This document shows positions 1,618-34,026 of a stretch of 34,026 nucleotides of DNA, in pieces. The stretch's first letter is position 1. Each line of letters begins with the position of its first letter. The stretch comes from an uncultured Candidatus Saccharibacteria bacterium (GTDB taxonomy: Bacteria; Patescibacteriota; Saccharimonadia; Saccharimonadales; Saccharimonadaceae). The stretch lies in the NCBI GenBank assembly GCA_946560015.1, contig CAMNUC010000005.1, forward strand, positions 1 to 34,026, given 5' to 3'. The notes under the pieces were generated by a model. That model ran no database searches. It saw nothing but the letters and a program-made list of their open reading frames with translations, and had not been told where the DNA came from. A program made the translations under genes and the position numbers.

Positions 1618-3045
1618 TTAATTTGCAGTAGCAGTAATAGTAACCTCAGTAGCATAAGTACCAGAAGGAAGGGTAGAGTCTACGGATATGGCTACTGGAA
1701 AGGTAATAGTTTTACTTTCTGCTCCTAGTGATTCATAGAATAAGACTTTGTTATTACTAATACCAATAGGACTAAATAATGTGTTTGCGGTAGTATCACC
1801 TAGTGTGCCTCCTGCCAGTGCTGAGTTAGTCTTCTTAATACCCCATGCTCTAGTACCAGGAGTGATAGTAGTATCGGTAGTGATCATTGGTATATTGTGA
1901 TTAGGTACTATGGGTGATTGTTCTAAAGTAGATTGATTAGTACTAAGTAGTACTTGGTACTTTTGATTAGAACTAATAGTAGCCGTAATATCTCCATGAG
2001 CTACAGTAGTAAAGTCTACTTCACTACTCATACCAGATGTAGCATCAATACTGATGACAGGGGAGACGGTAATAGCTACATTAGAAGTGGTAGAATCTGG
2101 GAGAACTACTGGCGGGAAGTCTGGATCATCTGGGTAGTTGGGGTCTGGGAATAGCTCTTCACTATCATTACCATTGCCGGAGAGGTTGGTGGTAGTGGTG
2201 AGGGCGAGACAGCGGACAGAGTTACCGTAGTAGCGCTGGCCGCGACTGTTGCCGTTGGATGGATTGGCGGCGTTACTGTAGAGGTACAAGATGTACGCTT
2301 GATTAGAATAGTAAGGCGTAGACGACCAATAGAAACCGTTGCCGCCGACGTAGTCGATACCACTGGAGCTCGCGCGCCCGCTATACTGGAAGTATATCGG
2401 GCTACCACGCATAATGGTAGATCCAGCAGCGTTATCACCTGCACCATAAGCTGTAGTTAATCCACCAAATGAACCTTTAGCTGTAGTACTACTTGTTGGC
2501 AGATGCCAGCCATTAGGACATACACCTTGTACTGTACCAGTTGCAGAAGTGTCTCCATTCATCGCAGCTGGCCAGGAGTAGTAGTTACCTCTTGATGCAT
2601 GATCACCGTCTGTGTGACCTGGATTACAGTATTGTGCTACTGTAATTGTATCCTGCCAGCCAGAACAATCTGTACCTCGGCTAGTACCACCACCATTGTA
2701 GGCTAGGTTCTGCGTCATCCAGCAGTTACCATCTTTAAGCTTAGTGACCCAGTAAGACTTGCCATCACGAATATCTATGAGTTGTTTAGTCTTATTCTCC
2801 TTAGTATTAGTACAGATTTGGTCAGACATTTGTTGCATGTACTTGATGTTCATGAGAGTGCGTTGGTCGGTAGTAGTATCGGAACGAGTTATGGTATTGG
2901 TGGGATTGATGGTACTATCTGTTGCAAAGGTGGGGTTAGGGATGTAGGTGAGGTAGGAGAAGAGAGCGAGAGTAGAGCAAGATGCCATAACAGTAATTAT
3001 GGGGATTTTGCATTTGTTAAAGTTAGTGTTGATTTTGAGCATCAT
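1618..3045 (-). CDS. Secreted/surface protein with Fibrobacter succinogenes major paralogous (FISUMP) domain
   Basis: Signal-like N-terminus; GKSYWVTKLKDGNCWMTQNLAY ... CPNGWHLPTSS ... GFYWSSTPYYSNQAYILYLY ... RGQRYYGNSVRCLA. SD AGGAGG upstream; alternative start at 3042. Confidence 0.85.
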   Translation of the reverse strand: MMLKINTNFNKCKIPIITVMASCSTLALFSYLTYIPNPTFATDSTINPTNTITRSDTTTDQRTLMNIKYMQQMSDQICTNTKENKTKQLIDIRDGKSYWVTKLKDGNCWMTQNLAYNGGGTSRGTDCSGWQDTITVAQYCNPGHTDGDHASRGNYYSWPAAMNGDTSATGTVQGVCPNGWHLPTSSTTAKGSFGGLTTAYGAGDNAAGSTIMRGSPIYFQYSGRASSSGIDYVGGNGFYWSSTPYYSNQAYILYLYSNAANPSNGNSRGQRYYGNSVRCLALTTTTNLSGNGNDSEELFPDPNYPDDPDFPPVVLPDSTTSNVAITVSPVISIDATSGMSSEVDFTTVAHGDITATISSNQKYQVLLSTNQSTLEQSPIVPNHNIPMITTDTTITPGTRAWGIKKTNSALAGGTLGDTTANTLFSPIGISNNKVLFYESLGAESKTITFPVAISVDSTLPSGTYATEVTITATAN

Positions 3046-3091
3046 GCCTCCTATGTGTAATTATGGGTTAAGTTGAGGGAGCCAGATTTTT

Positions 3092-3315
3092 GGTAACAAA
3101 AATAGCGCACAACGGCATATAACAATATATGCTTGTGGACAAATTGTGCGCTTACTGATACCAAAAAAGGCGCCACGAGCGGGCTACCTAACGTGAACAC
3201 TTTCCCAAAGGAATCTGTTTTGCATTAGACGCTACATGACGCCATTTTATTACAAAACAATACAAATATATTACATTTGCGTATTCACATTAGTAGCCAC
3301 CTTTATTGTATCATA
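3092..3315 (-). ncRNA. Conserved promoter plus double-hairpin leader/sRNA, copy A, upstream of the FISUMP gene
   Basis: TATGATACAATA (3315-3304), 60 nt, hairpin 1 (3243-3169) closed by GGCGTCA/TGGCGCC and followed by T6, hairpin 2 (GCGCACAA/TTGTGCGC enclosing GCATATA-TTGT-TATATGC) followed by TATTTTT GTTACC. Second copy at 33640-33865. Confidence 0.75.
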
Positions 3316-28986: not shown

Positions 28987-30591
28987 ATGAGTAAATCACG
29001 TGTTGAACCGAGTTATCAAGAAGCGATTGGGCGCGTAGTAGAACGTTTGCGCACCGAAAAAGGCTGGACGCAAGCGCAGCTAGCCGAGGCGATTGGTAGT
29101 AGTCAGTCAGCAATTCATCGCATTGAAAAGGGGCGACAGAATATTTCCTTAGATTTGACTAAAAAATTATCTCGGGCGCTAGGTGGGCAGATTTTATCAG
29201 TAAATGACTCTGTATCGCAAAGTTATCGCATTAATGGTGGTAAAGAGCTACATGGTGAAGCGATAATCAATACGAGCAAAAACGCAGCAGTAGCATTGCT
29301 TTGTGCTTCCCTTTTGAATAGCGGCGTCACGACACTGAAACATTTGGCGAGGATTGAGGAAGTATTCCGAATTATTGAGGTGTTAGAGTCAATTGGGGTA
29401 AAATGCCGCTGGATCAATGATGGTCAGGACCTAGAGATTACCCCGCCGACACAGCTAGATTTACACCATATTGATGTAGAGGCGGCTCGTAAAACACGTT
29501 CTGTGTTGATGTTTATGGGACCACTTTTGCATAAGTTTAAGAAGTTTCGTCTACCATATGCGGGTGGATGTACACTGGGTACGCGGACGATTGAGCCACA
29601 TCTAAGAGCCTTGTATGAATTTGGATTGAGGGTCGATGCAGCAAGCTGCAGTGGGTTTTATGAAACGACCGTAGAAGAGAAAAAAGTTCGGCAAGAACAA
29701 TGGAAAGCAGCACGTTCGGTAGAATCAGTGCGTTCGCTCTACCCGCCAAAGAAGATTGTGCTGATTGAGCGGGGAGATACCGTGACTGAGAACGTACTGA
29801 TGGCGGCGGCGTTATATCCGGGTGAGACGACAATAGTAGGAGCATCTTCGAATTATATGGTACAGGATTTGTGCTTCTTCTTGGAGAAACTAGGGGTGAA
29901 GATCCGCGGAATCGGATCGACTACGTTAAGAGTGCGTGGGAAGTCAGAGATAAACTCAGACACCGAATATGCGCCAGCAGAAGATCCAATTGAGGCAATG
30001 TCGTTTATTGCGGTGGCGCTGGTAACAAAGTCCTGTTTAACAATCCGGAGAGCGCCGATTGAATTCTTGGAGATTGAGCTAGAGATTCTAAAAAGTATGA
30101 ATGCGCGGATTGATCAGTCGCCAGAATATTACAGCGCGAATGGGCGCACGCGACTAGTGGATCTAAAAATCCATAAATCTGAGCTAGTGGCGCCGACTGA
30201 TAAAATCGCGCCGATGCCATTCCCTGGTCTGAATATTGACAACTTACCATTCTTCTCGGTGATTGCGGCGACAGCAAAAGGTCGCACTTTGATACATGAC
30301 TGGGTGTTTGAAAACCGAGCGGTGTATGTCACTTATCTTGAGAACTTGAATGCGAAAGTGGAACTGCTAGACGCGCACCGCGTATATCTAGAAGGGCCGA
30401 CAAATTGGCGAGCGGCAGAATTAGTGGCACCACCGGCTTTGCGCCCGGCAGTAGTAGTGATGATTGCAATGCTGGCAGCGCCAGGGACTTCGATTCTGAG
30501 GAATATCTATTCGATTAACCGTGGGTATCAAGATTTTGCGGCGAGACTAAATAAGCTGGGGGCGGATATTAAACCGCTGCTAGAGATTTAG
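28987..30591 (+). CDS. XRE-type HTH domain fused to UDP-N-acetylglucosamine 1-carboxyvinyltransferase (MurA-like)
   Basis: HTH: RLRTEKGWTQAQLAEAIGSSQSAIHRIEKGRQNISLDLTKKLSRAL; MurA: NTSKNAAVALLCA, YAGGCTLGTRTIEPHLRALYEFG, YMVQDLCFFLEKLGVKI. Confidence 0.9.
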   Translation: MSKSRVEPSYQEAIGRVVERLRTEKGWTQAQLAEAIGSSQSAIHRIEKGRQNISLDLTKKLSRALGGQILSVNDSVSQSYRINGGKELHGEAIINTSKNAAVALLCASLLNSGVTTLKHLARIEEVFRIIEVLESIGVKCRWINDGQDLEITPPTQLDLHHIDVEAARKTRSVLMFMGPLLHKFKKFRLPYAGGCTLGTRTIEPHLRALYEFGLRVDAASCSGFYETTVEEKKVRQEQWKAARSVESVRSLYPPKKIVLIERGDTVTENVLMAAALYPGETTIVGASSNYMVQDLCFFLEKLGVKIRGIGSTTLRVRGKSEINSDTEYAPAEDPIEAMSFIAVALVTKSCLTIRRAPIEFLEIELEILKSMNARIDQSPEYYSANGRTRLVDLKIHKSELVAPTDKIAPMPFPGLNIDNLPFFSVIAATAKGRTLIHDWVFENRAVYVTYLENLNAKVELLDAHRVYLEGPTNWRAAELVAPPALRPAVVVMIAMLAAPGTSILRNIYSINRGYQDFAARLNKLGADIKPLLEI

Positions 30592-33639: not shown

Positions 33640-33865
33640 TATGATACAATAGGGTTGCACACAATCATGGATGAGTAAAATGTTTTGTTTTGCTGTCATC
33701 CTGCGAAAGAAGGCGTCACCGAACGTCTAATGCAGGATAGGCTTTTAAAGTTACCCATGATTAGTGTGCCCGTTCGTGGCGCCTTTTTTGACATCAAGAA
33801 GCGCACAAAGGACAATATTCCCGGCATATAAATAATATATGTTGTTGTGCGTTATTTTTGTTACC
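33640..33865 (+). ncRNA. Conserved promoter plus double-hairpin leader/sRNA, copy B, upstream of the CDS at the right edge
   Basis: TATGATACAATA (33640-33651), 60 nt, hairpin 1 GGCGTCAC(C)GAACG...CGTTCGTGGCGCC (33712-33783) plus T6, hairpin 2 GCGCACAA..GCATATA..TATATGT..TTGTGCGT plus TATTTTT GTTACC. Confidence 0.75.
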
Positions 33866-34007
33866 TCAAAATAGGTAGCTTGAGCGCGGTAGAAACTAAC
33901 TAAGCTTGTCTATATCAAGCGAGACTAGACTTAGCTCATGTTCCCTTTCGCTCTCAACTTTCCACGAGCAAAAAGTTATAACTATAAACCAAAAGGAGGG
34001 CCATAAT

Positions 34008-34026
34008 ATGCGTCACAGGTCTAAAT
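34008..34026 (+). CDS. Start of a CDS truncated by the window end (MRHRSK...)
   Basis: AAAAGGAGGG SD at 33991-34000, then ATG at 34008; downstream of leader copy B. Confidence 0.6.

Follow-up and report, generated by a model that had tools for sequence, protein, structure and literature searches.

We find that many surface-protein genes in one genus of Candidatus Saccharibacteria are preceded by a structured leader RNA, predicted from sequence alone and without a match in Rfam, which has the anatomy of an on/off switch placed between promoter and gene, and which is repeated about 39 times in one near-complete genome. From about the first transcribed base the leader forms a long stem (P1), whose sequence differs in every copy while pairing is kept, followed by a second variable stem (P2). 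The P2 loop holds GGCRYCRYRAGG, which pairs as a pseudoknot with CCTYGYGGYGCC lying between P1 and a U-tract, and a further downstream strand can pair instead with the same 3' arm and U-tract, giving a mutually exclusive fold. We interpret this element as a cis-acting transcription attenuator or RNA switch for a surface-protein regulon. Its structure and gene context are demonstrated here, whereas termination, the direction of switching and any trigger are inferred.

Two copies in the window and the structure of the leader

The window is a 34,026-nt stretch, corresponding to contig C5 (CAMNUC010000005.1) of an 831-kb, 54-contig genome (GCA_946560015.1). A preliminary description reported two copies of a promoter plus double-hairpin RNA element, at 33640-33865 on the plus strand (copy B) and 3092-3315 on the minus strand (copy A), and this observation is confirmed: both copies share TATGATACAATA, then exactly 60 nt, then a series of conserved blocks, and both fold far better than dinucleotide shuffles (z of -4.1 and -6.7). 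The features of the two copies and their genes are as follows.

33640-33650 (+): copy B promoter, extended -10 (TG-A-TACAAT)
33653-33670 (+): copy B P1 5' arm (GGTTGCACACAATCATGG), at about the transcript's 5' end
33698-33704 (+): copy B P2 5' arm (ATCCTGC), from a constrained fold
33712-33725 (+): copy B PKa, the 5' pseudoknot arm (GGCGTCACCGAACG), in the P2 loop
33732-33738 (+): copy B P2 3' arm (GCAGGAT)
33755-33770 (+): copy B P1 3' arm (CCATGATTAGTGTGCC)
33771-33783 (+): copy B PKb, the 3' pseudoknot arm (CGTTCGTGGCGCC), pairing with PKa
33784-33789 (+): copy B first U-tract (T6)
33799-33859 (+): copy B hairpin 2 (AAGCGCACAA...TTGTGCGT) with second U-tract
33860-33871 (+): copy B downstream strand (GTTACCTCAAAA), whose UCAAAA can pair with UUUUGA of the first U-tract; the minimum-energy fold of the full leader pairs it and releases PKb
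34008-34026 (+): start of the ORF downstream of copy B (MRHRSK..., running off the contig, the same gene continuing on contig C2), with Shine-Dalgarno (SD) sequence AAAGGAGG at 33992-33999
3305-3315 (-): copy A promoter, extended -10
3281-3301 (-): copy A P1 5' arm (GGTGGCTACTAATGTGAATAC)
3251-3259 (-): copy A P2 5' arm (TGTTTTGTA)
3231-3243 (-): copy A PKa (GGCGTCATGTAGC)
3216-3224 (-): copy A P2 3' arm (TGCAAAACA)
3182-3200 (-): copy A P1 3' arm (GTGTTCACGTTAGGTAGCC)
3169-3180 (-): copy A PKb (GCTCGTGGCGCC)
3157-3168 (-): copy A U-tract plus GGTATC, pairing with 3085-3097 in the alternative fold
3085-3153 (-): copy A hairpin 2 (AAGCGCACAA...TTGTGCGC), second U-tract and the strand GTTACCAAAAATC
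1618-3045 (-): gene behind copy A, encoding 475 aa with a Fib_succ_major domain (PF09603, E 4e-11) and an N-terminal hydrophobic segment

BLASTN detects further copies in the same genome, and hand-checked copies total at least 10, plus one variant with a different pseudoknot sequence. In this variant (contig C37, 3900-4800) the same architecture (extended -10, P1 TGTCTAAAGTTGT/GCAACTTTAGACA, pseudoknot, U-tract, SD and membrane-protein ORF) is combined with an unrelated pseudoknot sequence (GTAGGGCACTGCTC/GAGCAGTGTCCTAT), such that the layout may extend beyond what our covariance model can find. On contig C15 (18700-19282) two leaders lie in tandem about 370 nt apart with no evident ORF between them, the first with a different second hairpin (AAGGGGAGC...GGCTCCCCTTTTT). 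Assembly breaks fall in or just after these units on contigs C1, C2, C5, C9, C10, C15, C25 and C26, apparently because the genes behind them are repetitive, so that MAG annotations undercount both the RNA and the surface genes. Elsewhere in the window (28987-30591, plus strand) we find an unusual fusion, a 534-aa EPSP-synthase/MurA-like protein with an N-terminal Cro/C1-type HTH domain.

Hand comparison of nine copies revealed what two could not. The first 12-20 nt after the promoter differ completely from copy to copy, but are complementary to the nucleotides just before the conserved CGTGGYGCC (P1), while the conserved GGCRYCA..., inside the P2 loop, pairs with that conserved 3' strand over 8-14 bp. 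Because PKb lies outside P1 and PKa lies in the P2 loop, P1, P2 and PKa:PKb together make a pseudoknot, with PKb followed by a U-tract. The 60 nt, originally taken as a poorly conserved spacer, are in fact the 5' arms of P1 and P2. Likewise, the proposed first hairpin is a pair of arms (PKa/PKb) separated by the P2 and P1 3' strands, and hairpin 2 belongs to a downstream fold that competes for the first U-tract, being replaced in other genomes by a copy of the PKa arm. The idea of two terminators in series is rejected, since hairpin 2 is absent from most of the family.

The earlier interpretation is only partly supported. A structured RNA with its own promoter ahead of surface-protein genes, one or more U-tracts, an attenuator-like layout and the absence of a known family all hold, whereas the model of two simple terminators and the spacer do not, the ligand-riboswitch idea has no positive evidence, and a stand-alone sRNA is disfavoured. 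The discovery of only two copies, or of an Rfam match, had been named in advance as grounds for rejection, and neither occurred. Searches of Rfam 15 at gathering score with the window and 20 loci returned only tRNAs, and a search at E<=10 returned eukaryotic chance matches far below gathering. Moreover, no paper found in literature searches has both Saccharibacteria and pseudoknot, and other searches returned no description, although most subscription papers, preprints and supplements lay outside their reach.

Distribution, covariation and downstream genes

A pattern with both pseudoknot arms found at least 119 stretches in the GTDB-representative collection. Of 80 of these, 79 are Candidatus Saccharibacteria MAGs, many from goat, sheep and cattle gut, and one is a MAG labelled Oscillospiraceae. 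A complete element with P1 and a downstream ORF lies on a 161-kb contig (CANQHN010000002.1) binned as Oscillospiraceae in a rabbit MAG, representing either misbinning or transfer. There were no matches in viral contigs. A covariance model of the pseudoknot arms only (R1) hits 70 of 147 genomes sampled from the window's genus, with at most 28 hits scored per genome. In one related genome, G080 (CAMVCW01; 98% complete), there are 39 strong hits (49.8 bits or more), the remaining 23 being opposite-strand echoes of the palindromic helix, and the 39 leader-gene units are dispersed singly over the whole genome (contigs C1-C6) rather than in arrays. In a 393-genome sample of the order, hits outside the genus are weak, and those of 27-40 bits that we examined in other genera lack PKa or P1, such that they look like ordinary terminators.

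Statistical support for P1, P2 and the pseudoknot is overwhelming. Across 40 copies, 97% of pseudoknot cells are paired, with 54 double changes versus 14.7 in shuffled controls and at most 7 when slid (slid controls are 36-59% paired). On a MAFFT alignment of 44 leaders, made from sequence only and not fitted to structure, P1 and the pseudoknot are 96.7% paired, 14 of 17 P1 pairs and 6 of 15 pseudoknot pairs have compensatory changes, and 205 cells are double-changed, versus 50 shuffled and at most 43 slid. RNAalifold also recovered P1 unaided. However, those 44 leaders were picked for a P1 of at least 14 bp beginning GTGC, and so an unselected test matters: for 132 hits found by the pseudoknot pattern alone, P1 pairs within a copy at -30.6 kcal/mol versus -13.7 across copies (p=5e-57), and P2 at -18.5 versus -7.8 (p=1e-55), with about nine of the hits lacking P1 coming from loci whose palindromic helix also matched on the wrong strand. 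The -10 hexamer ends 4-6 nt before P1 in 100 of 113 copies with a P1 stem, from which we infer, given the usual spacing of -10 and +1, that P1 begins at about +1. Conserved bases are nearly all in the pseudoknot arms, the A-tract before PKa, the U-tract after PKb and the C's between P1 and PKb. PKa of most copies (e.g. ATGGCACCGTAAGG) often reads AUG-GCN-YCN-UAA/UGA, a start-stop mini-ORF (such as AUG GCA CCG UAA), yet the AUG is lost in copies where that pair changes to C-G, suggesting that this is probably a coincidence of the wobble pattern.

All 37 copies fetched from G080 have the fold. Of these, 36 precede a gene, mostly 65-86 nt downstream with an SD, and one runs off its contig. The products are about 500-600 aa, with an N-terminal hydrophobic segment and C-termini resembling Fib_succ_major (FISUMP). 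Across genomes, 89 of 90 full-length downstream proteins have the hydrophobic segment, and of 10 diverse ones 7 match PF09603 at E<=0.01, three of them above its cut-off.

A competing fold and its interpretation

Between the U-tract and the start codon many leaders carry a second PKa-like strand (for example ACAAAATGGCACCGCAAAG), typically 28-36 nt after PKb. In minimum-energy folds of full leaders, PKb pairs downstream in 132 of 136. Under a strict criterion (at least 10 of 12 PKb and 4 of 6 U-tract bases paired downstream) this is observed in 63% of full leaders, versus 15% with dinucleotide-shuffled downstream sequence (p=3e-23). In the window's genome the same job is done by the strand closing hairpin 2 (UUUUUGGUAUC with GUUACCAAAAA in copy A; UUUUGA with UCAAAA in copy B), which changes in a compensatory way between the two copies. 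Copy B cut at its U-tract folds as the nested terminator (-46.6), whereas extended through hairpin 2 it folds as P1, P2 and hairpin 2 (-68.5).

We therefore propose, with moderate confidence, a new family of cis-acting leader RNA acting as a transcription attenuator or two-state switch in front of individually promoted surface-protein genes. The sequences themselves establish an extended -10 promoter positioned to place the RNA 5' end at P1, the conservation of P1 and P2 as pairing rather than sequence, the pairing of PKa in the P2 loop with PKb next to P1 and ahead of a U-tract, an enrichment after the U-tract of strands able to pair with PKb and the U-tract, so that PKa:PKb (fold A) and PKb:downstream (fold B) exclude each other, and a following gene that encodes a secreted or membrane-anchored protein, usually of FISUMP type. 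What we infer is the behaviour of this structure: in the nascent RNA P1 and P2 would fold first, PKb would snap onto the P2 loop, and the 12-16-bp helix plus U-tract would end (or pause) transcription in many rounds (OFF), while in rounds that read through, fold B would take PKb and the U-tract away, leaving the ribosome site open (ON). The set point may be constitutive and stochastic, or moved by a protein or condition; no ligand pocket is visible, and no sensor or ligand is identified.

Fold A places its helix directly before A/G-UUUUU, the hallmark of an intrinsic terminator, with T's more constant than their possible A partners: T occurs at position +6 after GCC in 95% of copies, although unlike +2 to +5 it was not required by the search pattern. 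As a plain hairpin, however, the arms would enclose about 35-65 nt, and five U's is only a moderate tract. Fold A can act only co-transcriptionally, because fold B is available once the downstream strand exists. Yet fold B forms 30-50 nt after the U-tract, and so cannot prevent the termination decision itself unless polymerase pauses. Furthermore, the nested fold of RNA cut at the U-tract usually keeps P1/P2 rather than PKa:PKb (5 of 136 have PKa:PKb), and coexistence of these helices needs a pseudoknot, which the folding methods used do not score.

Several alternative hypotheses may explain the element, although we consider each unlikely. The foremost is a translational switch, in which PKb, the U-tract and downstream strands control access to the SD rather than termination. 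Fold B partners do lie between the U-tract and the start codon, and some leaders have striking SD-masking stems, such as CCCUCACUUAG/CUAAGUGAGG and UACCCCGUUUA/UAAACAGGGUA. However, pairing with the SD region is only marginally better within than across copies (p=0.02), so that masking is not upheld as a universal feature, whereas the U-tract is nearly invariant. Somewhat less likely is a stand-alone sRNA of about 150-170 nt, with P1 sealing the 5' end, the pseudoknot and U-tract making the 3' end, and the gene position secondary. The element's own promoter at about +1, compact closed fold and U-tract are compatible with this, and a terminated product would be such an RNA whatever its role, yet essentially every copy is directly upstream of a surface-protein gene with its SD, and fold B, after the U-tract, is also non-random.

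A 5' mRNA stabiliser without switching, in which P1 at +1 and the pseudoknot protect a long-lived mRNA, would account for P1 starting at the inferred first bases of the transcript in nearly all copies, but explains neither the U-tract nor fold B, and is doubtful. A metabolite riboswitch, suggested by the leader position, pseudoknot and exclusive folds, appears very unlikely, given that outside the pseudoknot helix, A/U tracts and P1 ends there is almost no conserved base, with no conserved unpaired aptamer core, and that the genes behind it are surface proteins with no metabolic theme. Least likely is a DNA-level element (a folded single strand, or inverted repeats for cassette recombination among surface-protein genes). 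Although several contigs of the window's genome end in or just after the element because the downstream genes are repeated, G-U pairs are abundant in both helices (UG in 38 of 44 leaders at one pseudoknot pair), and orientation and promoter spacing are fixed, which fits RNA and not DNA.

A more far-reaching possibility, which we regard as tentative and rather unlikely, is a genus-wide RNA-switch regulon in genome-reduced bacteria, in which dozens (up to about 39) of paralogous surface proteins each have their own promoter and their own copy of a pseudoknot attenuator, with stems so diverged that hardly any two copies are alike. Expression of each protein would then be gated separately and stochastically by RNA folding, or jointly by one trans-acting factor recognising the constant pseudoknot helix, giving a repertoire of surface states without DNA rearrangement. 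How Saccharibacteria control the surface proteins with which they meet hosts and each other is poorly known, and a recent review states that the mechanisms governing differentiation between attached and swarmer cells remain completely unknown (PMC11665869). A leader repeated about 39 times in a 0.8-Mb genome would, to our knowledge, be among the densest cis-RNA regulons, and its constant core (pseudoknot helix and U-tract) makes testable predictions for Term-seq and reporters. It also adds a large RNA family, unknown to Rfam, with strong covariation and a pseudoknot-terminator architecture.

Relation to known systems

FISUMP (PF09603) surface proteins are mostly what the genes behind the RNA encode, but FISUMP genes occur in 144 of 147 genomes of the genus, while the RNA is in 70. 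No leader of this kind was detected upstream of 20 FISUMP loci in RNA-negative genomes (several with uncertain gene starts) by a sequence-free scan that recovers 97 of 109 known leaders, and 8 of 109 on reversed sequence. A requirement of the RNA for FISUMP expression is hence rejected, and the RNA would be an added control layer.

Intrinsic-terminator attenuators in 5' leaders (trp/his-type and riboswitch expression platforms) share with the element a promoter, a leader with exclusive folds, and a GC-rich helix followed by a U-tract, then SD and gene. Here, however, the terminator-like arms are split, so that the 5' arm sits in a hairpin loop inside a long P1, the alternative partner is downstream of the U-tract, and there is no leader peptide or known sensor. 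In H-type pseudoknot riboswitches (SAM-II, preQ1) a hairpin loop likewise pairs with a strand just downstream, near the gene's 5' region, yet the present element has a 12-16-bp pseudoknot helix, an extra 17-25-bp P1, a U-tract after the pseudoknot strand, no conserved unpaired pocket, and surface-protein genes behind it. T-box leaders also occur as many paralogous leaders in one genome with a terminator and variable stems, but the genes here are not amino-acid related, no Rfam T-box match was obtained, and no T-box bulge or specifier loop was seen by eye. The element is best called a new family of attenuator-type leader RNA with an unusual pseudoknot-terminator layout.
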